A DNA stretch of 47,914 nt. Source: an uncultured Paraglaciecola sp. GTDB taxonomy: Bacteria > Pseudomonadota > Gammaproteobacteria > Enterobacterales > Alteromonadaceae. Shown piece after piece: positions 3,356 to 47,914 of the stretch. The notes below the pieces were generated by a model. The model did no database searches and was not told where the DNA came from. It saw only the letters and a list, made by a program, of their open reading frames with translations. Where the stretch lies: assembly GCF_913020055.1 (NCBI RefSeq), contig NZ_CAJWCF010000020.1, positions 1 through 47,914 of the forward strand, read 5' to 3'. Both the position numbers and the translations under genes were made by a program. Position 1 is the first letter of the stretch, and each line of letters opens with the position of its first letter.

Positions 3356-3403
3356 ACATAACGCCTAAAGCAGCGGATTATCCGCTGCCTTTGTTTGTTA
3401 AGT
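3356..3403 (-). repeat. attC-like palindrome in front of the DUF2784 pseudogene
   Basis: Read on the minus strand the element starts with ACTTAAC (fits RYYYAAC) and ends with GTTATGT (6 of 7 to GTTRRRY); these outer boxes pair with one mismatch. Between them lies a perfect stem, GCAGCGGA (3370-3377) and TCCGCTGC (3381-3388), extended by AAAG/CTTT past a single bulged C, as in integron attC sites with an extrahelical base. At 48 bp it is shorter than most attC sites. Alternatively it is a simple hairpin terminator: the plus strand continues with CTTTGTTTGTT. Confidence 0.4.
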
Positions 3404-24294: not shown

Positions 24295-25704
24295 TTACTT
24301 GGCAGTGGCTTGTGTTTGCGCTAAATATTGCTGAAGTTTGTCCATGGCTGGTTGCGCATTTGCCCGTAAGCGTTTCACTATGGCTTGTTTTTCGGCGTCG
24401 TCTTCTTTAACACTGCGCATCAACTGGCTAAATCCATCTAGCCTATTGTCTAATAGCCATTTACGTAGATTTTCATCTTGCGACCAAATATATTGGTTCA
24501 TCATAAAAGCCGCAGTTAAACGTAACCAATCAATTAACGTGTTGGGTAAAGGCACCACGTTACATATTTGATTTTTAGCGGCTTCTGGGTAAGCCAATTC
24601 AATATGCGCGATAAAGGCAGCGCTGAAAACAGGTTGATATGAACGTACAGTTTGTGGCGTGATGATATCGCCTTCAAACACAGGTTTAATCGTTAAGTTG
24701 GTTAATGCACTGGCTGAACAGTCAATATGTAAGTGTCCGGTACTGGTAGGGATAGAACCTTGCTCTAATACAATTTGATGACTCTCAATGTTGGTGACTC
24801 GACCCATTCTCACGATATTTTTTACTTTGCGTAATTCAGTCAACTCCATTTGGCTAATGGTTGCCCCATGAAACATTGTTGGTTGAACATCAGTATCAAT
24901 TCTTAAGAACACTCCGGCTTTTTCTAACCGGTCAAACATGTCTTCAATTGATTCAGAGTCGGCTATGGCTTCCATTTGTGAAGCTTGAGCACCAATTGCA
25001 TCTACAAAAAATTCTTCTGTCGGTTGGGTGTTTTTACGATCAATTAACCACGCATCTCGGGGCATAATCCATTGAATGTCGTCAGGGTTTACATTGTTTT
25101 CCAGTAACCACAAAATGGCATCGATGCCGGTTTTTCCTCCGCCTACAATCACATAACCAGCAGGCGGTTTTGTCACTTTAGGCAGATCATTTAGCGGCAT
25201 AAATTGAATATCAGTAGCAACAGTAAAATTTGGTGTATGGGTAGAAGGCACATTGGTATTTAAATAGGTAGCATCAACGGTTTTTTTGTTCACTTTGACT
25301 TGATGAGACTCACCCGTAAGAGACGAAACAAACTTTCCATCACCTTTGTAATCACACATTGGAAAGTATTTCACTCGCCCGCTAGGTAAAAATTGTTCGT
25401 GCATCACATCGTCAAAATAGGCGCTAACTTCAGCACCCGAAGCCAATTCATTCAGCCCTTTATTTAAACCAACCTGATCGATACTGCCTTTACTTAACTC
25501 ACGAGAACTCACACCATAAAAAGAAGAGGGTTGATGAAGTGTGACAAAAGGATAAGCCACATTCCAATGCCCACCAGGCTTATGAAAACGGTCAACAATA
25601 ACAATATTCGCGTCACTTTCTGTTAATAAAATATCGGCAAATGCCATACCCACTGCACCGCTACCAACAATTAAATAATCTGTTTCATGAGTATGTGTCG
25701 TCAT
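24295..25704 (-). CDS. FAD/NAD(P)-binding monooxygenase-like oxidoreductase
   Basis: 470 residues from ATG 25704 (GAGGA ribosome site upstream; an open extension to 25794 has no such site and would overlap the operators). A Rossmann FAD motif LIVGSGAVGMAFAD lies at about 11-24, and a second dinucleotide motif VIVGGGKTGIDAILWL at about 170-185, probably for NADPH. The acidic PHWNV-type GGHWNVAYPFV segment follows the first. It resembles flavin-containing monooxygenases, but I do not see the canonical FxGxxxHxxxY fingerprint, so the chemistry is open. First gene of a two-gene operon with the DUF2855 gene, divergent from tetR. Confidence 0.82.
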   Translation of the reverse strand: MTTHTHETDYLIVGSGAVGMAFADILLTESDANIVIVDRFHKPGGHWNVAYPFVTLHQPSSFYGVSSRELSKGSIDQVGLNKGLNELASGAEVSAYFDDVMHEQFLPSGRVKYFPMCDYKGDGKFVSSLTGESHQVKVNKKTVDATYLNTNVPSTHTPNFTVATDIQFMPLNDLPKVTKPPAGYVIVGGGKTGIDAILWLLENNVNPDDIQWIMPRDAWLIDRKNTQPTEEFFVDAIGAQASQMEAIADSESIEDMFDRLEKAGVFLRIDTDVQPTMFHGATISQMELTELRKVKNIVRMGRVTNIESHQIVLEQGSIPTSTGHLHIDCSASALTNLTIKPVFEGDIITPQTVRSYQPVFSAAFIAHIELAYPEAAKNQICNVVPLPNTLIDWLRLTAAFMMNQYIWSQDENLRKWLLDNRLDGFSQLMRSVKEDDAEKQAIVKRLRANAQPAMDKLQQYLAQTQATAK

Positions 25705-29288: not shown

Positions 29289-29477
29289 GGGTTACCTCTT
29301 CGTCAGGCCGCATCGCTATTCAACCCGAAGTTGAACACCATACGAAAATTAAATTAAAAAGCTTTGTGGCTTGCCGCAAAGTGGCGCGCATATTAATGTA
29401 ACGGGCTTGGGCGATCAAGGCTTTTGTTGGATTTATCGCCATTAACTCTATTTCATTGAAGGTTTTGTAGTATCTAA

Positions 29478-39180: not shown

Positions 39181-40344
39181 ATGGCATCACTGCAGACAAT
39201 TCGAGAAAAATATATGACGGTAACCAAAAGAAAAAAACCAATAATCGGTGTTCTCCAAGTTTTGGGTGTCATTGTTCTGATGGTTTTAGCGTTTGTCTAT
39301 TCGAGGGCACCTGATCAAACAGATTCAGCACCACCACAAAATTTTTCATCCGACTCCAGTAAACCGATTCCACTAGTTTCAGTGGTAAAACCGTCTGTTT
39401 CATCTGAGCAACTAACGGTTGCGTCAACCGGTTCTGTTTCCGTTCGCAGCTATGTAACACTCACCTCGCAGGTTTCTGGAAGAGTGGTTGCCACTTCTGA
39501 TTCATTACGAAATGGTGGTAAGTTCTCTGCAGGTGAGACATTAGTCACCCTTGAGCAACGAGACTTTACCCTTGCTTTAGCCCAAGTTCAGGCCGACGTT
39601 ACCTCTGCACAAGCATCACTTCAGTTGAGTCAAGCTGAAGCTTCAGTTGATATCACCAGTTACCAACGTCTGAATCCAGGAAAAGACGTGCCACCGCTTA
39701 TCGCAAAAGAACCTCAAATCACCCGAGCCAAGGCACAACTGCAAGCCGCCGTTGCCCGCCGTGACATTGCTCAAGTAAACCTTGAACGCAGTGTGTACTC
39801 GCTACCATTTTCAGGAAGAGTGGTTGAAAGTTCAGCCGATGAAGGTCAAATATTAAATGCGGGTCAATCGTTTGGTCGAGTTTATGCCCTAGACGCAATT
39901 GAAATTGTCATTTCCCTTGCACCACAAGAACTGGCAAAAATAACCCCGGCAAAAAACCGCACTGCGATGATCACGGTCGATGGAGTCACCTTTGAGGGTC
40001 GCATAGACAGAATAGCCGCTGAACGAAATTCACGTACTCAGTTCTCCCAAGTTTTCCTAACAGTAACTGATAACCAATCATTAACACCTGGAACCTTCGC
40101 ATCTGTCAGTTTGAGTGGACCAGTAATCGATAGTACCTTTAGGCTGCCAGAAAGCGCGCTGCAAGTAGGACAAGCTTTTTGGATAGTAAAAAATGGCGTT
40201 ATCGAGAGTATCTCAGCAACAATCTTAGGCCGCAGCAATGGCCAATATCTGGTTGAAGCATTCGAATATGCAGACGGAATCGTTACTGGCACTGTTCCTG
40301 GTGCCCGTGATGGAATGGCTGTTCGCTCGGTAGAGGCTAACTGA
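39181..40344 (+). CDS. RND efflux periplasmic adaptor (membrane fusion protein)
   Basis: 387 residues. One N-terminal membrane helix (about 22-41), a barrel-sandwich hybrid split around a coiled coil (about 120-195, ALAQVQADVTSAQASLQLSQ), then beta-barrel with ITVDGVTFEGRIDRIAAE and a membrane-proximal end. Links the inner-membrane pump to an outer-membrane channel, which is not encoded here. It overlaps the pump gene by one base (TGATG). ATG 39214 (MTVTKRKKP) is an alternative start that avoids a long cytoplasmic tail; neither has a strong ribosome site. Confidence 0.85.
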   Translation: MASLQTIREKYMTVTKRKKPIIGVLQVLGVIVLMVLAFVYSRAPDQTDSAPPQNFSSDSSKPIPLVSVVKPSVSSEQLTVASTGSVSVRSYVTLTSQVSGRVVATSDSLRNGGKFSAGETLVTLEQRDFTLALAQVQADVTSAQASLQLSQAEASVDITSYQRLNPGKDVPPLIAKEPQITRAKAQLQAAVARRDIAQVNLERSVYSLPFSGRVVESSADEGQILNAGQSFGRVYALDAIEIVISLAPQELAKITPAKNRTAMITVDGVTFEGRIDRIAAERNSRTQFSQVFLTVTDNQSLTPGTFASVSLSGPVIDSTFRLPESALQVGQAFWIVKNGVIESISATILGRSNGQYLVEAFEYADGIVTGTVPGARDGMAVRSVEAN

Positions 40345-43300
40345 TGACTGACCATAAAGAAATACAACCCGAAACACCTTCCAAAGACACCCATAAAGGT
40401 TTGATTGCATATTTTGCTAACAATCCAGTAGCTGGCAATCTTCTTATGGTGATTTTGCTCGTAGGCGGTTTGTTGTCGGCAATTGGGCTAACGGCCCAGG
40501 TCTTTCCAACGATTGATCCGGGTACTGTGAGCATTTCAGTGGTTTATCCCGGAGCAACACCCACTGAGGTTGAGGAAGGTATTACTAGGCGAGTCGAAGA
40601 AGCGGTTTTTGGTATCGATGGGGTTGACCGTGTAATTTCTCGAGCGTCAGAAAACCTCGGTTCGGTTACGCTTGAATTAAAAGATTTTGTCGACGCCGAC
40701 AAGGTCCGCGACGACGCAGAAGCCGCAGTTGAGCAACTTATCGATTTTCCACCAGAGGACGCAGAGCAACCTAAAGTAGTTCGCGCTGAAACCTTGTCAG
40801 ATGTATTGACCATAGTCGTCAGCTCAGAAATGGGCGAACGTGAACTCAGGCGCGGCGCTGAGAGAGTTGAGCAAGAACTATTGGCACTGCCTGGTGTATC
40901 ACTGGTGTCACTCATCGGCGCGAAGGATTACGAAATAGCGATTGAAATAAGTGAAGATACGCTGCGCCGCTACGACCTCACCATGTCAGAAGTCGCCAAC
41001 ACCATCCGTCGTTCTTCTATCAACTTATCTTCAGGACAGATTCAAACCCAAGGGGGCGATTTATTACTTCGTACCAACACTAAGGGCACGACTGGTGGTG
41101 CCTTTGAAAATATTGTACTTCGCGCCGATCCAGATGGCAGTGTACTAAGAGTATCTGATGTAGCGACCGTCAGGGATGGGTTTGTCGACGTAGACCTTAT
41201 CAATCAATTTAATGGTCGCGAGAGTGTACTGGTAAAAATTCAAAAATCAGAAGCCGAAGATGTACTTGTCATAGCCGATGAGATCAAGACATTTCTAGCG
41301 GATTATACTCCGCCACCCGGTATCGACGTATCTGTTTGGAATGATCAAACCAAGACCCTCGAGGAACGTATTGGTTTGTTACTGAGAAACGGATTGCTTG
41401 GCTTTGCCTTGGTTTTCCTTTTCCTTGTGATCATGCTTGATTTAAGGCTTGCCCTTTGGGTTGCCATGGGTGTGCCCATCTCATTTTTGGGTGCATTTTT
41501 ATTTTTTGATGCCTTTGCTATCAACATCAATATGATTTCCCTGTTTGCCTTGATTATTGTACTGGGGATCGTCGTTGACGATGCAGTGGTGGTGGGCGAA
41601 AGTATTATTAGCGAACAAGAAAATGGCAAAACTGGCATGCAAGCCGCAATGGATGGAGTTAATGCCGTAATTGGACCTGTGATGGTTGGCGTATTTACCA
41701 CAATGGCGGCTTTTGCACCTTTGTTGTTTGTCACCGGAACATTTGGACAAATTCTTGGGGTGGTGCCGGTAGTAGTTATTCTGGTGCTGGCAATGTCACT
41801 GATTGAAGCATTCCTTATCTTACCGTCGCACTTAGCTAACGGTGGAAATTGGAGTCGTTGGCCTCTAGATAAAATACAAAATGCGGTATCAGCCAAGGTT
41901 GATCAGTTCCGCACTAATGTATTGGCACCAGCGGTAGCGCGCGCTGTGCGCTTTCGTTACCTCACATTAATGGGTGGTATCGGATTGCTAGTCCTCGCTG
42001 GGTTATTAGTGGGCAGTGGTGCTGTGCGGTTCTTATTCTTTCCATCATTGGAAGCAAATTCCATTCGGGCCACAGTTGAATTCCCTATCGGTACGCCATT
42101 TGAATCAACCCAAAACGCCGCTAATCAAATGGTCGAAGCTGCGAATACGGTAAATGCACGCCTCGATGGTGCTGCTTTCGAATCAATTAGCGTCACTATA
42201 GGTGGACAAACAAGATCAGGCGGCGGACCCGGCGGTGGCAGTGGCATGACAATAGCGAGCCATCTTGCGTCAGTACAAATAACACTAGGGCCTGAGCCGC
42301 CAAGAACCCGCAACGCAAAAGAATTAGAGCGTTTATGGCGATCCGAAGTAGGTGATATTCCCGGTGTCGAACGACTCTCTTATATCGCTGACTTTTTTGG
42401 TGGTCAAGCTGATCTAGAGTTTGAACTAGCTCATCAAGATGGTGAAATTCTTGAACAAGCTGTTTCTAACTTGAGGGCTAGTTACGAAACCATTGATGGC
42501 GTCTACGAAGTTCAAGATTCAAACAGTATTGGTAAAAGGCAACTTGATATAACGTTAACTCCCACAGGTGAAGCTGCTGGACTCACCCCAACCGATATTG
42601 CTAGGCAACTTCGCCGAAACTTTTTTGGTGAAGAAGTGCAACGTATTCAACGCGGTCGCGAAGAGCTCAAAGTGATGGTGCGTTATCCTAAGACTAACCG
42701 CAGCTCTACCACAGATTTGTTTGATGCACGTATTCGGCTTGCCGACGGTAGCGAAGCACCTCTATTAAGTGTTGCTCAAGTCACAGAATCCAGAAGTTTG
42801 TCTGCCATTAACCGTATTGATGGTCTAAGAATTGTCTCGGTTTCAGGTCAGGTAGACGATGCGGTGAACACCCCAAGCTTAGCTAATACAGAAATATTAG
42901 AACAATTTTTACCTGCGCTTAAACAACAATTTCCAGGTCTACAAGTGCGCCAATCTGGATCAGGCCGTGAACAATCAAATGATCTGTCTTCATTGGGCAG
43001 GTTGACCCTAGTCGCACTATTGATAATTTTTGCAATGATGGCATCTCAATTAAAAAGCTACTCACAACCGCTCATCATATTAGCTGGGGTACCTTTTGGA
43101 GCCGCAGGAGCTTTGGTTGGGCACTATCTGTTGGGTTACAACCTATCCTTTATTTCTATCTTCGGAATAGTCGCACTCAGTGGTGTGGTCGTTAACGATT
43201 CACTGGTGTTGCTAGATCGTTACAACAAACTTGTTGATGAAGGATGGGAAAACGCCAAAGCAGTCGTCGAAGCATCTCGGCGCAGGTTTCGTGCAATATT

Positions 43301-43520
43301 TCTGACAACAGCCACCACTGCACTTGGCCTAACACCTATGCTGTTCGAAACCAGTACACAGGCGCAGTTTCTGATCCCAATGGCGGTCAGCTTAGCCACC
43401 GGAATTGTGTTCGCCAGTGTGATAATCCTATTTCTTATTCCAGCACTAGTGATGATAAGGGAAGACATGCGTTCAAAAAGAAAGGACGTTGAGCCTGAGT
43501 TAGCTAAATCAAGTGGCTAA
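40344..43520 (+). CDS. RND efflux pump permease (AcrB/MdtBC superfamily)
   Basis: 1058 residues with the full RND layout: helix 1 near residue 30, first large periplasmic domain, helices 2-6, second periplasmic domain and helices 8-12. Helix 4 has the proton-relay pair Asp412-Asp413 in GIVVDDAVVVGESI. FPTIDPGTVSISVVYPGATPTEVEEGI near the N-terminus is typical of the family, as is SGVVVNDSLVLLDRYN in the second half. Substrates are unknown; there is no outer-membrane channel gene next to it. The last residues are charged and cytoplasmic. Confidence 0.92.
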   Translation: MTDHKEIQPETPSKDTHKGLIAYFANNPVAGNLLMVILLVGGLLSAIGLTAQVFPTIDPGTVSISVVYPGATPTEVEEGITRRVEEAVFGIDGVDRVISRASENLGSVTLELKDFVDADKVRDDAEAAVEQLIDFPPEDAEQPKVVRAETLSDVLTIVVSSEMGERELRRGAERVEQELLALPGVSLVSLIGAKDYEIAIEISEDTLRRYDLTMSEVANTIRRSSINLSSGQIQTQGGDLLLRTNTKGTTGGAFENIVLRADPDGSVLRVSDVATVRDGFVDVDLINQFNGRESVLVKIQKSEAEDVLVIADEIKTFLADYTPPPGIDVSVWNDQTKTLEERIGLLLRNGLLGFALVFLFLVIMLDLRLALWVAMGVPISFLGAFLFFDAFAININMISLFALIIVLGIVVDDAVVVGESIISEQENGKTGMQAAMDGVNAVIGPVMVGVFTTMAAFAPLLFVTGTFGQILGVVPVVVILVLAMSLIEAFLILPSHLANGGNWSRWPLDKIQNAVSAKVDQFRTNVLAPAVARAVRFRYLTLMGGIGLLVLAGLLVGSGAVRFLFFPSLEANSIRATVEFPIGTPFESTQNAANQMVEAANTVNARLDGAAFESISVTIGGQTRSGGGPGGGSGMTIASHLASVQITLGPEPPRTRNAKELERLWRSEVGDIPGVERLSYIADFFGGQADLEFELAHQDGEILEQAVSNLRASYETIDGVYEVQDSNSIGKRQLDITLTPTGEAAGLTPTDIARQLRRNFFGEEVQRIQRGREELKVMVRYPKTNRSSTTDLFDARIRLADGSEAPLLSVAQVTESRSLSAINRIDGLRIVSVSGQVDDAVNTPSLANTEILEQFLPALKQQFPGLQVRQSGSGREQSNDLSSLGRLTLVALLIIFAMMASQLKSYSQPLIILAGVPFGAAGALVGHYLLGYNLSFISIFGIVALSGVVVNDSLVLLDRYNKLVDEGWENAKAVVEASRRRFRAIFLTTATTALGLTPMLFETSTQAQFLIPMAVSLATGIVFASVIILFLIPALVMIREDMRSKRKDVEPELAKSSG

Positions 43521-43539: not shown

Positions 43540-43570
43540 GCCTAAAACAGATGGGCATGGCTATTTAGGC
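43540..43570 (+). terminator. hairpin after the RND pump gene
   Basis: GCCTAAA (43540-43546) pairs with TTTAGGC (43564-43570) across a 17-base loop. There is no U-run, so it may be a weak stop or a processing site. Confidence 0.35.
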
Positions 43571-43610: not shown

Positions 43611-43800
43611 TCAATCAACGTCTCTGCCCCTGTCGATTTCAACGAACCTGACCCCGCGGGTCGGAATTTGGTAGCAAACAAGCGTTGGCAATCTCTGCCC
43701 ACAGATTTAAAAAACAGTCCGATTGTTGATGGCAGTGGCGCTGTTAACGGGTTTTTCGGCGCACTCTACGCCTTTTGACGGTAGTTATATCAACTTAAAC
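43611..43800 (+). pseudogene. possible decayed coding fragment containing a REP-like motif
   Basis: About 56 codons are open from 43611 (SINVSAPVDFNEPDP, then NLVANKRWQSLPTDL, then GAVNGFFGALYAF) and the next frame continues with DGSYINLNP after a four-T run at 43770-43773. That suggests one inserted T in a former gene. No start codon or family is recognised. The part CGATTTCAACGAACCTGACC contains the 19-base motif (43637-43655) also found at 8482-8500, so the fragment may have been carried or created by a mobile repeat. Confidence 0.3.
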
Positions 43801-43870: not shown

Positions 43871-44224
43871 TTACCTAACTAGTCCTAGAATTTCATCACC
43901 CTGAAAACCAACACTTAATTGATTACAGCTTTTTGACGTTATTAGAACATCAACAAATGTGTCTACAGTGGCACTGTACATTTTTGCATCCCAAGAAGAC
44001 GTCGTTGAACTGAGTTTAATACTCTTTAAAACCACTAAACCAATTGATTTAGGGTTTAAGTCGTGGGAATGAACTGATATTTCACCTTTAGTTAAATCAA
44101 TAAAAAGTGTCGCAGGTTTAGCCGAATGCTCCCAAACACCTGCAATATTACATTCTTCACTTTTAACCCCAACTGAAAAAATACAGGCTATTATTATTGA
44201 ACTTAATACTGCCAGTTTGTGCAT
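43871..44224 (-). CDS. exported protein of unknown function (possible cassette gene)
   Basis: 117 residues with a signal peptide (about 1-22) and one Cys pair in the mature part (EECNIAGVW and SKSCNQLSV). Unrecognised otherwise: mixed beta character, GVWEHSAKPATLFIDLTKGEI resembles small lipocalin-like exported proteins, but that is a guess. The start is ATG 44224 with AAAGGA upstream. The box GTTATAT (minus strand, 44244-44238) just before it resembles an attC right end. Confidence 0.6.
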   Translation of the reverse strand: MHKLAVLSSIIIACIFSVGVKSEECNIAGVWEHSAKPATLFIDLTKGEISVHSHDLNPKSIGLVVLKSIKLSSTTSSWDAKMYSATVDTFVDVLITSKSCNQLSVGFQGDEILGLVR

Positions 44225-44255
44225 GACTATCCTTTAGATATAACGCTTCGAATAA

Positions 44256-44279
44256 TGCCCAAACACTCGCGTTTGGGCA
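44256..44279. repeat. strong hairpin between two cassette-like genes
   Basis: TGCCCAAAC (44256-44264) and GTTTGGGCA (44271-44279) form a perfect 9-bp stem around ACTCGC. It follows the PsiE-like gene stop on the minus strand and is followed by GTTATAT, so it may be the stem of a degenerate attC or a terminator. Confidence 0.5.
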
Positions 44280-44284
44280 GCAAA

Positions 44285-44728
44285 TCAGCGAGTATTTGCA
44301 CTTCTATAACTATGCTTAATAAACCAATAACAGCCACCTAAAGCTATGATAATAAACCCTAAGCCTATGATAGATAAGGGGTCATATTTTTCTAAATCGA
44401 GTAAAATCACTTTTCTAGAAACAGCGATAACTGCCACTAATAAAACGACCTCTGCATGTATAACATTATCTTTGAAATACATTTCAACTGTCTCTACTAG
44501 TTCGAACCCGATGAGAATAATGAAAAAGAAACCAAAAATTTTAAACAATTCATCAATTTCTAGAAAAAGCACATCATCTGTTGGGTCAAACAAATCTAAA
44601 TAAAGAATGATACCCAGCTCTACTATCGCGATAGCAACAATTATTGTCATCAATATAAGCACAACAAACGACATCCATTTCTTGACTGCATGAATGGAAG
44701 AAACAGCTTTATCGATATTTTTACCCAC
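44285..44728 (-). CDS. PsiE-like membrane protein (possible cassette gene)
   Basis: Four hydrophobic helices and the PsiE motif HAEVVLLVAVIAVSRKVILLDLEKY, so it belongs to the phosphate-starvation-inducible E family (function unknown). I chose GTG 44728 because GGAG lies just before it. An ATG at 44758 would add ten residues but falls inside an attC-like box (44756-44750), so it is likely acquired sequence. A charged N-terminus and a basic C-terminal tail lie on the cytoplasmic side. Confidence 0.72.
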   Translation of the reverse strand: MGKNIDKAVSSIHAVKKWMSFVVLILMTIIVAIAIVELGIILYLDLFDPTDDVLFLEIDELFKIFGFFFIILIGFELVETVEMYFKDNVIHAEVVLLVAVIAVSRKVILLDLEKYDPLSIIGLGFIIIALGGCYWFIKHSYRSANTR

Positions 44729-44749
44729 TAATTTTATGCTCCAATTTTT

Positions 44750-44971
44750 ATATAACATGCGACTGCATCAGTATGATCGAGCATGGCTAGTGCGACGCAT
44801 AATGCGTCATAGCCTGTTTAAACGCCAATTAATATGCTTCTCTGGGTGCCCTATTGCTTTAACAGGCACCACAAATCTTATTTAGACACCCAATATATTG
44901 GCATAGAATGTTTCGTAGTTTGCCAAAGCCAAAACAATGCAACATTGTCGAAGTTAAGGCTTTTGTTATAT
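44750..44971 (-). repeat. spacer with complementary attC-like end boxes
   Basis: The minus strand starts with ATATAAC (44971-44965) right after the gene at 44977 and ends with GTTATAT (44756-44750) right before the PsiE-like gene; the two are perfect complements. Inside are GACGCAT/ATGCGTC (palindrome near 44795-44809) and GGTGCC/GGCACC hairpin arms. At 222 bp it is longer than ordinary attC sites, so it may hold two sites or an insertion. No gene is seen inside. Confidence 0.4.
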
Positions 44972-44976
44972 AAAGA

Positions 44977-45438
44977 TTACTCGTGGTATTTACGAATTAC
45001 AGCAACCTTATCTCCTTCCATTTCTAGAATTTCCATCATGATCTGAGAATACTCTATAGCTTGACTATTTTGTGGATGAATACCTTTAGCGTAATTCTTA
45101 TAACGAATAGCAATGGCCGATTGATTAAAAACAAATACATTCAGCAGTGTGGCGTTGTATTCAGAATGGGCCCCTAAATAAAAAGTCATGCCTTTTCTCA
45201 TGGACTCTTTTCCATCAGGTAAGCGGGAATCATCAACAACATATGGCAAGTGAGAATGACCCACATCCTCGGTAAGCAAAGCAAGATAAGCTTCTAACTG
45301 CTCTGGTTTAGCATTTGGGGCTTGGGTTGCAATCATAGTTTCGAAATAATGCTTAGCAAATTTGTGCAGGTCGAATTCTTTGGTATGTGCAGAAAACGAA
45401 CAACAAATGAGAAGTACTGCGCAAATGAGTGTTTTCAT
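44977..45438 (-). CDS. exported SnoaL/NTF2-like protein (possible cassette gene)
   Basis: 153 residues with a signal peptide (to about residue 19, SAHT). The mature part has the look of the SnoaL-like/NTF2 fold: an N-terminal helix pair (FAKHYFETMIATQAPN, then EQLEAYLALLTEDVGHSH), then beta strands (ATLLNVFVFNQSAIAIRYKNYA, and the final MMEILEMEGDKVAVIRKYHE). Substrate is unknown. I use ATG 45438 because GGAG lies just upstream; a TTG at 45456 is open too. It lies between attC-like boundaries. Confidence 0.68.
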   Translation of the reverse strand: MKTLICAVLLICCSFSAHTKEFDLHKFAKHYFETMIATQAPNAKPEQLEAYLALLTEDVGHSHLPYVVDDSRLPDGKESMRKGMTFYLGAHSEYNATLLNVFVFNQSAIAIRYKNYAKGIHPQNSQAIEYSQIMMEILEMEGDKVAVIRKYHE

Positions 45439-45460
45439 TAAAACTCCATTTTTCAAATGT

Positions 45461-45503
45461 ATATAGCGTGCAATTAAGGGAACGAGTTAGCGCCTTGTTA
45501 TGT
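45461..45503 (-). repeat. degenerate attC-like element before the SnoaL-like gene
   Basis: Minus strand: ACATAAC-AAG-GCGCTAA (from 45503) resembles the left part of attC sites of marine bacteria (TAACAAGGCG...), and TTAATTGC near 45476 followed by GCTATAT (45467-45461) resembles the right part with two changes. It is only 43 bp, so the variable loop may be deleted. Confidence 0.4.
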
Positions 45504-45505
45504 GC

Positions 45506-45536
45506 TCATGCGTTTAATAAAACGATTAACGCATGA
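45506..45536 (-). terminator. hairpin after the 52-residue gene
   Basis: TCATGCGTT (45506-45514) pairs with AACGCATGA (45528-45536), followed on the plus strand by AAAAAAA. Transcripts coming from the right would reach the hairpin only after an upstream U-run, so the terminator function is uncertain. Confidence 0.4.
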
Positions 45537-45553
45537 AAAAAACACTTAATTAT

Positions 45554-45712
45554 TTATCGTGTAACTACATGCCATATGACATAAAACCAAGATAAGAAAC
45601 CGTGCAAGATTGCCCATAATACAGATTTGTTGGCACTCCATGAAATGGCGATAGATAATGCAGTTCCAAAAGTTATTCCGTATTTAGCTATTTCATTCCT
45701 TGAATCTTTCAT
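45554..45712 (-). CDS. 52-residue two-helix membrane protein (cassette gene)
   Basis: Minus strand, ATG 45712 to TAA 45556-45554: MKDSRNEIAKYGITFGTALS followed by two hydrophobic segments (about 12-28 and 31-47) and a short VTR end. GGGAG lies 9 bases before the ATG. The small size and mix of Trp and aliphatic residues suggest a small inner-membrane protein; similar short proteins are common in marine genomes but have no known role. It begins 69 bp after the well-formed attC at 45782-45885, which fits a cassette gene. A plus-strand frame over the same bases is less convincing. Confidence 0.68.
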   Translation of the reverse strand: MKDSRNEIAKYGITFGTALSIAISWSANKSVLWAILHGFLSWFYVIWHVVTR

Positions 45713-45781
45713 TGTTCAAACTCCCAACTTTTTTTGTTTTATTAACTATAAAATTAAAATGCTACGCGATAGTGATATGAC

Positions 45782-45885
45782 ATCTAACGTCGCGTTAATT
45801 GGTGCAGTGATGTTGGCGGCTTTGCTGCCTTTCTTTGCAGCAAAGGTGACAATATTACTGAACCTATTTGAACGCCTTGTTAAAT
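45782..45885 (-). repeat. integron attC recombination site
   Basis: On the minus strand the site begins with ATTTAAC (fits RYYYAAC) right after higA and ends with GTTAGAT (fits GTTRRRY). Inside are the inner boxes, GCGTTCAA (45875-45868) and TTAACGC (45798-45792). Each is spaced three bases from its outer box, and they are complementary except for one unpaired C, as expected for the extrahelical base. The centre has a GCTGC/GCAGC hairpin. The length of 104 bp is usual. The overall form (AACAAGGCGTTCAA ... TTAACGCgacGTTA) matches attC sites of Vibrio and marine Gammaproteobacteria. Confidence 0.85.
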
Positions 45886-45889
45886 TTAT

Positions 45890-46186
45890 TTATGCCGCTT
45901 GAAAGTTGTATGGCAATACGTGTAGCGACTCTTTTTGTTGTCTTGTTTGCCAAAGGTCATAAGCATTTTGAAGTCTCAACCAATGATCAGCAGACGGTTT
46001 ACCAAAAGCCAACTCTAGCCGTAATGCCATTTCAGGAGTAACTGAGCCACGAGCATTTAAAACTTTAGATAGCGTTTTACGGCTAACATCTAGGTGACTT
46101 GCAACGTCTGTAATGGTTAAACCTAAAGACTCAATTACTAGCTCTTTGATAATTTCACCGGGGTGTGCAGGGTTAAACATTGCCAT
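45890..46186 (-). CDS. higA: HigA-type antitoxin
   Basis: 98 residues. An XRE-type helix-turn-helix fills most of it: [20 protein letters not shown], then [20 protein letters not shown], then [12 protein letters not shown], the usual HigA/VapI pattern. It overlaps the end of higB by one base (TAATG) and probably represses the shared promoter with the toxin. The stop lies 5 bases before the attC left end, so higBA forms a typical integron cassette whose gene ends inside the site edge. Confidence 0.93.
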
Positions 46187-46464
46187 TAGTGATAATCCTC
46201 GTAATTTACAATTTCAGCATCCTTACCAACGAAGCGATAAGTAACTCTCCAGTTACCACTTACGCGCACAGACCATATACCTTTTCTGTTACCTTTAAGC
46301 TCATGCATAAATAAACCAGGTAAATCCATATCGTCTGGAGTTTCTGCTTGATCCAAGTTAGTTAGAATCAGGCGCAACTTTTTCTCATGCTTCTTCTGGA
46401 TTCCAGAAGTGCTACCTGATGAATAGAACTTTTGAAGACCTTTATGGATAAAGCTTTTAATCAT
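46186..46464 (-). CDS. higB: HigB-type toxin (RelE/ParE superfamily mRNA interferase)
   Basis: 92 residues, with the pattern of HigB toxins: [56 protein letters not shown], and the terminal TYRF...NYEDYH with the conserved Tyr-His. Ribosome-dependent mRNA cleavage is known for the family. Toxin-first order and a one-base overlap with the antitoxin gene are typical of higBA. It stabilises integron arrays in many marine bacteria. Confidence 0.93.
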
Positions 46465-46784
46465 GAAACAAAGTGTAACCTAAAGGGTTTCGAAATACCA
46501 CGGGGCGATTTTAAATTAACGACGCCATAAACGGCTAAATAAGAATTTTCTTTAGAGAATTTTCTTTAGACACCCAAGATAATAAAGTACCCAATAACAG
46601 CAGAATCAACAAGCTCAAACTGATGTAGGTATTCCCATTTTTTGGTTTTAAAATTAGGGAATTAGAAATAATTAGCGAGGGGACGCGATGAAAACAGTTT
46701 AATTTAAGGGCGAGCTCAATTTACAGGCAGCATGTTTGGAGCACGCAGTGCTGGGAGGTTTGATGATGTGCAATGTTTAACTTT
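46465..46784. other. spacer between higBA and the Y1 transposase with a tandem repeat
   Basis: No gene is visible. AGAATTTTCTTTAG occurs twice in direct tandem (46542-46555 and 46556-46569). TTTAGACACCCAA at 46565-46577 recurs at 44881-44893 inside the cassette-like spacer. CGTTAAT around 46518 (minus strand), next to GGCGTC, could be the right half of another attC, but the left half is missing. The promoter of higBA must be here. Confidence 0.4.
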
Positions 46785-47765
46785 TCAGGCGTGTTGTAAT
46801 AAAATCCTGGCCTTTTCCATCCCTCGTATACGTTTATGGTCTGTGTGTTGTTTGAATTGTTGTAGCATGTGTTCACTGCCTACTGCTATGTTGAAATGTT
46901 TCTCGAACTCTGTAGTCAGCGTTAACCATTGCTCTGAGTTTAGGCCAAGGCGCTCCAGTATGGGGCTGTTGTGATGCTCGATGTGCCCTGCTTTATCCTC
47001 TCGAATACATTTACCGGTGCAATCCACTAATTCACAGTAATCAATCAGGTTATAGGCAATACCTTTGGACATGTCTTGTCTGTGATTGCCCACAAATCGC
47101 ATGAGTTTTCTGGGTTGTTCTCCTTTGATGAGTGAGTGAATTCGTTGCTGGATACTTGTGTATTTTGACGTTTCAGGTGTTCTGTTCATCTTGGCGCGAA
47201 TTGGGTTTAAATCAACATAAGCCATACAAGCTAACACCGCACTTTCATCTAACAACGCTTGAGATTTGAATCGCCCTTCCCAAAATCTTCCCGTACAACC
47301 ATCCTCTTTATTCGCTTCACGGGCTATGTATTCATTAAGGTTGCGCATGAGCCAACTGATGTCGAACAAACGTTGACGGTAAATCGTCACTGTTTCTTCT
47401 AGGCTAATAATTTCGCTTTTGCTGAGAGTGCCGCCTCTTCGATACTTTTGACTCAAAAGCGTACCTTGGTACAGTAGATGCCAGCGTTTTATCACTTCTT
47501 TCATCGACCAACTATCAGCCATATCTTTATCCACACACAGCACTACATGGGTATGATTACTCATTACCGCATAAGCACAAATATCGATAGCAAACACCGA
47601 CCCTAGAAACAACAACCGCTCTTCTACCCACCCTCTGCGATGTTCGTAACTTTGGCCGGTAAACTTATCTTCACCGCACAAAAAGGAACGACGAACACAG
47701 CGAGAAACACAATGGTAATAAGGGGTATCAATTAGACTAATTTGAGTTTTACGTGGCTGAGGCAT
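46785..47765 (-). CDS. REP-associated tyrosine transposase (Y1/IS200-like, RAYT)
   Basis: 326 residues. Y1-transposase domain with the HUH metal motif NHTH (His71, His73), the RAYT-type start ISLIDTPYYHCVSRCVRRSF, a probable nucleophile Tyr146 (NEYIAREANK), and GRFWEGRFKSQALLDE. The C-terminal part (about 170-326) has MAYVDLNPIRAKM, a RAYT hallmark. Such enzymes move short palindromic REP elements, not themselves. Candidate REP-like copies in the window are at 8482-8500 and 43637-43655, though none flanks this gene. It appears intact. Confidence 0.88.
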   Translation of the reverse strand: MPQPRKTQISLIDTPYYHCVSRCVRRSFLCGEDKFTGQSYEHRRGWVEERLLFLGSVFAIDICAYAVMSNHTHVVLCVDKDMADSWSMKEVIKRWHLLYQGTLLSQKYRRGGTLSKSEIISLEETVTIYRQRLFDISWLMRNLNEYIAREANKEDGCTGRFWEGRFKSQALLDESAVLACMAYVDLNPIRAKMNRTPETSKYTSIQQRIHSLIKGEQPRKLMRFVGNHRQDMSKGIAYNLIDYCELVDCTGKCIREDKAGHIEHHNSPILERLGLNSEQWLTLTTEFEKHFNIAVGSEHMLQQFKQHTDHKRIRGMEKARILLQHA

Positions 47766-47914
47766 AACAGACCATCCTTGGTTTTTTAAGTACCTTAAAG
47801 CTTAGAACAAAACAGCTGTTTTGCTACTTTTTAAAGATGGGTGATGAGATGGACGCTCCCTAATACGGCGTCAATGCGCCAAAATAGTAGTGTTAACCAG
47901 ACTATTTACATAGG
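47766..47914. other. upstream region of the transposase, cut by window edge
   Basis: No gene is visible. AAAACAGCTGTTTTG around 47806-47820 is a perfect palindrome (CAGCTG centre), but its role is unknown. Confidence 0.3.

Follow-up and report, generated by a model that had tools for sequence, protein, structure and literature searches.

Integrons and Related Cassette Systems

Sedentary chromosomal integrons of the Vibrio superintegron type combine a chromosomal integrase gene (intI) with a divergent cassette array whose attC sites share one orientation, and toxin-antitoxin cassettes are found in them together with many cassettes of unknown function. Clusters of attC sites lacking integron-integrase (CALINs) consist of cassette-like units without an intI on their own contig, and HigBA type II toxin-antitoxin cassettes carry genes of the HigB and HigA families, with the toxin gene first and an attC downstream. 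Here, we describe a block of five small gene units, read leftward from 46464 to 43871 on the minus strand of a 47,914-nucleotide stretch of DNA from an uncultured Paraglaciecola sp. (contig NZ_CAJWCF010000020.1 of assembly GCF_913020055.1; the whole stretch is called the window below). The block begins with a HigBA pair and lies beside the gene for an RND efflux permease (the pump gene), and a first-pass annotation made from the sequence had described it as a CALIN. We consider it, with a probability of roughly 80%, to be the far, decaying end of a chromosomal integron, from which the integrase gene, beside hutH on another contig (C69), was split off by an assembly break.

Compared with the systems above, the block is most likely the tail of an ordinary chromosomal integron with eroded sites. 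It differs from the Vibrio type in being smaller as far as can be seen, in the presence of three intI genes in one genome, and in the erosion of its distal attCs. It differs from a CALIN in that it has only one complete attC, intI genes are present in the genome, and synteny places one of them at the other end of the array. In contrast to described HigBA cassettes, no attC is recognised upstream of higB. A REP-associated tyrosine transposase-like (RAYT-like) element occupies this position, in which one would have expected another cassette. The locus illustrates how a probable contig break can give the appearance of a CALIN and how homology can reveal a cassette edge whose attC is eroded. It also draws attention to a small, weakly DUF2147-like protein family, of unknown function, that occurs in some integron arrays of Alteromonadales.

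An Intact attC behind the HigBA Genes

The site at 45782-45885, here called attC1, is a genuine attC, and the full site that had been annotated there is thereby upheld. The outer boxes of attC sites follow the consensus RYYYAAC and GTTRRRY, and those of attC1 read ATTTAAC and GTTAGAT. In local alignment, the site matches an attC from the same locus of a close relative (L090:17268-17372) from end to end with a score of 71, while 200 dinucleotide shuffles gave a mean of 27.1 and a maximum of 39. The bottom strand of attC1 forms a single complete hairpin of -27.3 kcal/mol (z -7.93; none of 200 shuffles was as good), the architecture of which matches that of the same homologue. Our attC library comprised 55 attC-like sites with scan scores of at least 30 from this genome and from the relative G017, with the window excluded, and at least one of its entries is the antisense of a real site. 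A candidate attC upstream of higB is not claimed, as its best alignment with the library was equalled by 67 of 200 shuffles.

Probably Eroded Sites at the Remaining Borders

At the other three borders, neither folding nor half-site scoring found a complete attC with both outer boxes and a paired stem. Half-sites were scored from 42 distinct sites, and both strands of the window's first 43.5 kb (87 kb) served as background. The 5' half at 44971, directly after the stop codon of a SnoaL-like gene, scores 16.8 bits, more than any of the 1756 background AAC positions, and the 3' half at 44238, directly before the gene for a 117-residue protein, scores 19.3 bits, more than any of the 1839 background positions; the 5' half at 45503 is weak (7.7 bits, with 0.26 per kb in the background). 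Aligned with the library, the spacers at 45457-45553, 44748-44976, and 44225-44330 were equalled by 8, 30, and 3 of 200 shuffles, respectively. Folding of the bottom strand of each spacer, a check proposed in the first-pass annotation, succeeded for attC1 but for none of the other borders: 45461-45503 (z +1.3) and 44750-44971 (z -1.3) show no attC fold, and 44238-44300 forms a hairpin of non-attC shape (z -3.9). The covariance model R1, which was built from 15 native attCs, covers 44238-44324 with 11.4 bits (E 2.6), and the best 3' partner for the 5' half at 44971 is not above chance. An outer box near 43785-43791 was considered as the end of the last cassette, but its half-site reaches at most 0.9 bits, no attC fold is seen, and the alignment of the spacer with the library was equalled by 124 of 200 shuffles, so no cassette end is claimed there.

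Homology to some relatives begins within 6 bases of all four borders. For the gene of the 117-residue protein, DNA similarity starts at 44244-44250, at the GTTATAT box, in seven of eight relatives, while the eighth (L144) gives no DNA match; judged by eye, GTT is present at that offset in 5/8 of these relatives and a TAAC box lies 13 bases past the stop codon in 5/8. The similarity of the PsiE gene to the copy in G131 starts at 44756, where G131 reads GTTATAC and the window GTTATAT, and the open reading frame (ORF) of the window lacks the TAA stop codon of the G131 copy, its last codons extending toward the attC remnant. The unit encoding a 52-residue protein becomes homologous to G224 DNA at 45777, 5 bases from the edge of attC1, and similarity of the SnoaL-like gene to Pseudoalteromonas CF6-2 starts at 45458, beside GCTATAT. 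We infer that the four units beyond HigBA are likely cassettes with eroded attCs.

The Integrase and a Probable Assembly Break

The window is the whole of contig C20 in a draft of 185 contigs, and this contig stops inside the repeated RAYT-like element, with its last 77 bases forming the end of contig C122 as well. Three full integron integrases over the curated cut-off are encoded in the genome, on C25, C69, and C100, and none on C20; counting this genome, 18 of the 22 genomes of the genus have an integron integrase over the cut-off. C69 carries hutH and a full intI, and its end, at 25485, lies 316 bp beyond the intI match.

Both flanks have a counterpart in G017. The hut flank of C69 is 84.7% identical to G017 DNA up to hutH, and the pump flank of the window is 86% identical, with synteny ending at 43564 and the permease itself being 94% identical. 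On one 931-kb contig, G017 has hutH, an intI fragment (TIGR02249, E 1.3e-48) that adjoins an IS1595 transposase, an attC array, and then the orthologous pump gene, whose 3' end points toward the array. All but one of the 22 R1 hits at E<=1 fall in the array, and a group II intron maturase gene and RAYT-like pieces lie between array and pump gene. The cassettes are oriented toward the pump in both genomes. An intI with an adjacent attC array is found on C25 and C100 in this genome and, with the intI fragment, at this locus in G017; genome-wide, scoring 150 of 1770 candidates gave 32 attC-model hits at E<=10, which lie mainly on C25, C14, C173, and C54.

Given the order hutH-intI-array-pump in G017 and the hutH-intI pair on C69, the hutH integron most likely has its distal end in this block, and its integrase gene probably lies on another contig, so that the seeming absence of an integrase is likely an effect of the assembly. 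A single hutH-intI-array-pump integron, split by assembly, is the simplest reading, and C69 and C20 are probably linked, as judged from synteny with G017. Of what the first-pass annotation had claimed, the cassette block is supported by attC1, the half-sites, the homology edges, and the array homologues of three genes, whereas its status as a CALIN is called into question by the contig end inside a repeat, the intI genes elsewhere, and the G017 synteny. The statement that no IntI is present in the window is not contradicted, but the window is one contig and three intI genes lie elsewhere in the genome. The suggestion to look for intI beyond the right edge runs into the repeat at the contig end, while the synteny points to the intI of C69.

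In the G017 array (L061:5459-8344), a ParE-like gene, BrnT, and two PIN-domain genes are found; three of these four genes and the attCs lie on opposite strands. The maturase gene (L061:7993-10025) is located behind the last attC; group II introns that target attC sites are known. The 4737 bases of C173 hold six attCs in a position-weight scan.

Weighing the Alternatives

Several observations weigh against a single integron split by assembly. The join of C69 and C20 is deduced from a single relative, only G017 among the 39 relatives searched has a close pump orthologue (94%; next 45%), and the end of C69 has no match on C20. Over 472 bases, the intI fragment of G017 and the C69 intI are only 69% identical in DNA, a lower identity than in the flanks, and therefore the integrases may have been exchanged. 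In G017, unlike here, the last attC and the pump are separated by about 8 kb in which no attC was hit, and there may have been a rearrangement in this genome relative to G017. The homology edges are also uneven: those of the 52-residue gene in L029 (45732) and L030 (45731) are away from the border, as are those of six other SnoaL relatives, which start inside the gene at 45279 to 45363, so that the comparison of close relatives proposed in the first-pass annotation agrees at four borders in some relatives and disagrees in these. Finally, attC1 is absent from the R1 matches at E<=10 in the window, and the position-weight scan gives it 24.0, with chance pairs in the window reaching 25.4. We think that both methods may miss it because its attC type is longer, and since the best R1 match in the window is unrelated and attC1 is unlisted, we relied on direct alignment with shuffles and on folding. 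The covariance-model check suggested earlier thus yielded the weak cover at 44238-44324 but not attC1.

A true CALIN, that is, an old integrase-less cassette cluster beside the pump gene and independent of the three integrons of the genome, would agree with the eroded attCs, with the lack of intI on C20, and with other scattered single attC-model hits in the genome (such as on C13, C30, C37, C75, and C79). We consider it unlikely because the contig ends inside a repeat and because, in G017, the pump flank closes an array that starts with an intI fragment at hutH, matching C69. PMC9024848 also reports that the number of CALINs is overestimated in draft assemblies; it gives two attCs per CALIN as the default of IntegronFinder 2, with the remark that single-attC cases can be true, and the one complete attC of the block is fewer than this default.

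The half-sites at 45461 (-0.5 bits) and 44750 (-1.7 bits), which are at background level, count against our reading too, and they are what would be expected if a single HigBA cassette had been captured beside four ordinary chromosomal genes and the remaining outer boxes were due to chance. The G224 homologue of the 52-residue protein and 9 of the 11 SnoaL loci scanned, which are outside attC arrays, would agree with this as well. Nevertheless, the half-sites at 44971 and 44238 stand at gene borders and beat everything in the 87-kb background, in some relatives homology starts at the four borders, and the 117-residue, SnoaL-like, and PsiE genes have homologues in attC arrays (L139, L129, L130, L149), which makes a lone HigBA cassette quite improbable. 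For the three further borders that had been annotated as carrying outer boxes, two strong half-sites thus remain, while 45503 is weak and none folds as an attC. Scarcely credible is a reading of the halves at 44971 and 44238 as one attC into which the PsiE gene was inserted, which is suggested by ATATAAC and GTTATAT, two perfectly complementary boxes that face each other from either side of PsiE. This possibility was rejected, as the inner arms pair at 3.6, under the median of 6.2 for random attC arm pairs, and PsiE has its own cassette-like edge at 44756.

If the block does form the distal part of the hutH integron, attC1, with its bottom strand folded, would be bound by the C69 integrase, which could still add cassettes at this site or excise them. 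The 52-residue, SnoaL-like, PsiE, and 117-residue units, having no complete attC, would be locked in place. Among the five units, HigBA would be the last that is followed by an intact site, and it would penalise its own loss through release of the toxin. Such integrase activity, locking-in of the distal units, and stabilisation by HigBA are likely at work. A more general idea, that distal cassettes turn into permanent chromosomal genes by attC erosion and that HigBA stands guard where the mobile part of the array gives way to the frozen part, is one that we put forward tentatively and with more doubt than confidence.

Protein Families of the Block

The cassette proteins differ in how widely they are distributed. 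Matches to the 52-residue protein were found in 2 of 295 genomes of the order, this one included, the copy in G224 being 96% identical, and no array was found around that copy or around two Pseudoalteromonas plasmid copies. The SnoaL-like protein has matches in 14 of the 295 genomes, again including this one; two of the 11 loci scanned (L129, L130) are attC arrays, and the homologues in L027 and L028 are outside such arrays. This protein has no Pfam match at E<=0.001, and some of its homologues carry PF12680 and NTF2 names. A PsiE homologue is located in an attC array, in reversed orientation, in L149, one of three loci scanned out of six fetched.

The 117-residue protein, predicted to be exported, belongs to an unnamed family that is weakly DUF2147-like and occurs in some Alteromonadales integrons. 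It has 66 homologues at E<=0.001. In Colwellia sp. BRX10-3 (L139), the gene has an attC on either side, and in L144, a locus of an uncultured Glaciecola that seems to be identical with L118 of G284, it follows attCs; no attC pair was found around the other six of the eight loci, among which L137 resembles one by eye. Weak similarity to DUF2147 (PF09917) is seen in seven of 21 family members (best E 0.0029), with no member above the gathering score and no match to the profile for the copy in the window; the family differs from DUF2147 in that 5 of the 21 also weakly match DUF2647. A low-confidence fold model (pLDDT 65) gave no Protein Data Bank match at E<=0.001 (best E 0.01), and the result, in which several of the top matches were lipocalin-like or similar small barrels, was not used. 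Our literature search found no paper joining DUF2147 and integrons.

Pairwise ratios of nonsynonymous to synonymous divergence (dN/dS), which cover both lineages and not just the time since capture, were 0.017-0.047 for the 52-residue gene (three relatives), 0.072 for PsiE (one of three pairs, dS being saturated in two), 0.14 for the SnoaL-like gene (one of seven pairs; dS saturated in six), and 0.17-0.41 for the 117-residue gene (eight pairs). A possible defence function for the cassettes, raised in the first-pass annotation, was not borne out: PADLOC at E<=0.01 returned only a weak helix-turn-helix match of HigA to mad1 (E 0.0037). Among the four of the block's six proteins that were given to PHROGs, only HigA and HigB were named.

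Gene Content and Other Features of the Window

The ORF call on the window places six minus-strand ORFs in the block, and with the matches to PF05015, TIGR02607, and PF06146, the five units that had been annotated, including higBA and PsiE, are confirmed (Table 1). The HigB-like toxin and HigA antitoxin genes are adjacent and form a pair by their families.

Table 1. Features of the cassette block and its flanks (positions in the window).
Feature	Positions	Strand	Evidence
RND efflux permease gene; chromosomal flank, distal side of the array	40344..43520	+	ACR_tran, E 1e-153
117-aa protein gene, fifth unit; predicted exported (by eye); weakly DUF2147-like family	43871..44224	-	homologue family
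attC 3' half with hairpin; 5' arm not found	44238..44300	-	half-site score
PsiE-family gene, fourth unit	44285..44758	-	PF06146, E 2.4e-27
GTTATAT, likely start of PsiE unit	44750..44756	-	homology edge with G131
5' half of attC of SnoaL unit; outer 3' box not found	44922..44971	-	half-site score
SnoaL/NTF2-like protein gene, third unit; predicted exported (by eye)	44977..45456	-	homologue names
Weak possible attC remnant, outer boxes ACATAAC / GCTATAT	45461..45503	-	half-site scores; no attC fold
52-aa protein gene, second unit; putative membrane protein (first-pass annotation)	45554..45712	-	G224 homologue, dN/dS
attC1, intact attC of the HigBA cassette, 104 nt	45782..45885	-	alignment and bottom-strand fold
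higA, antitoxin gene, 98 aa	45890..46186	-	TIGR02607, E 7.9e-31, above cut-off
higB, toxin gene of HigBA pair, 92 aa	46186..46464	-	PF05015, E 2e-22, above cut-off
RAYT-like element, extent inferred; contig end falls inside	46555..47914	-	NF047646 and partial genomic copies

The RAYT-like gene at 47765-46785 matches NF047646 with E 3.8e-9 and 36.6 bits, under the cut-off of 80, and the Pfam search of the window proteins gave no match for it. One further match to the block's DNA exists in the genome, 57 bases long and 79% identical, over the higA-higB overlap region.

Some features lie far from the block. The best R1 match in the window (23.7 bits, E 0.0047) is a 48-bp palindrome with attC-like boxes on the minus strand at 3356-3403, which folds with z -4.5 and may represent either a terminator or a short attC standing alone. 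It is followed by a broken DUF2784-like gene, of which a piece at 3125-3244 matches with E 4.9e-6, under the Pfam cut-off. The ORF at 2510-2923 has an integrase N-terminal domain (Phage_int_SAM_4), with no match to a catalytic domain. The sole Rfam match at gathering score in the window is an L31 ribosomal protein leader on the minus strand at 29294-29344.

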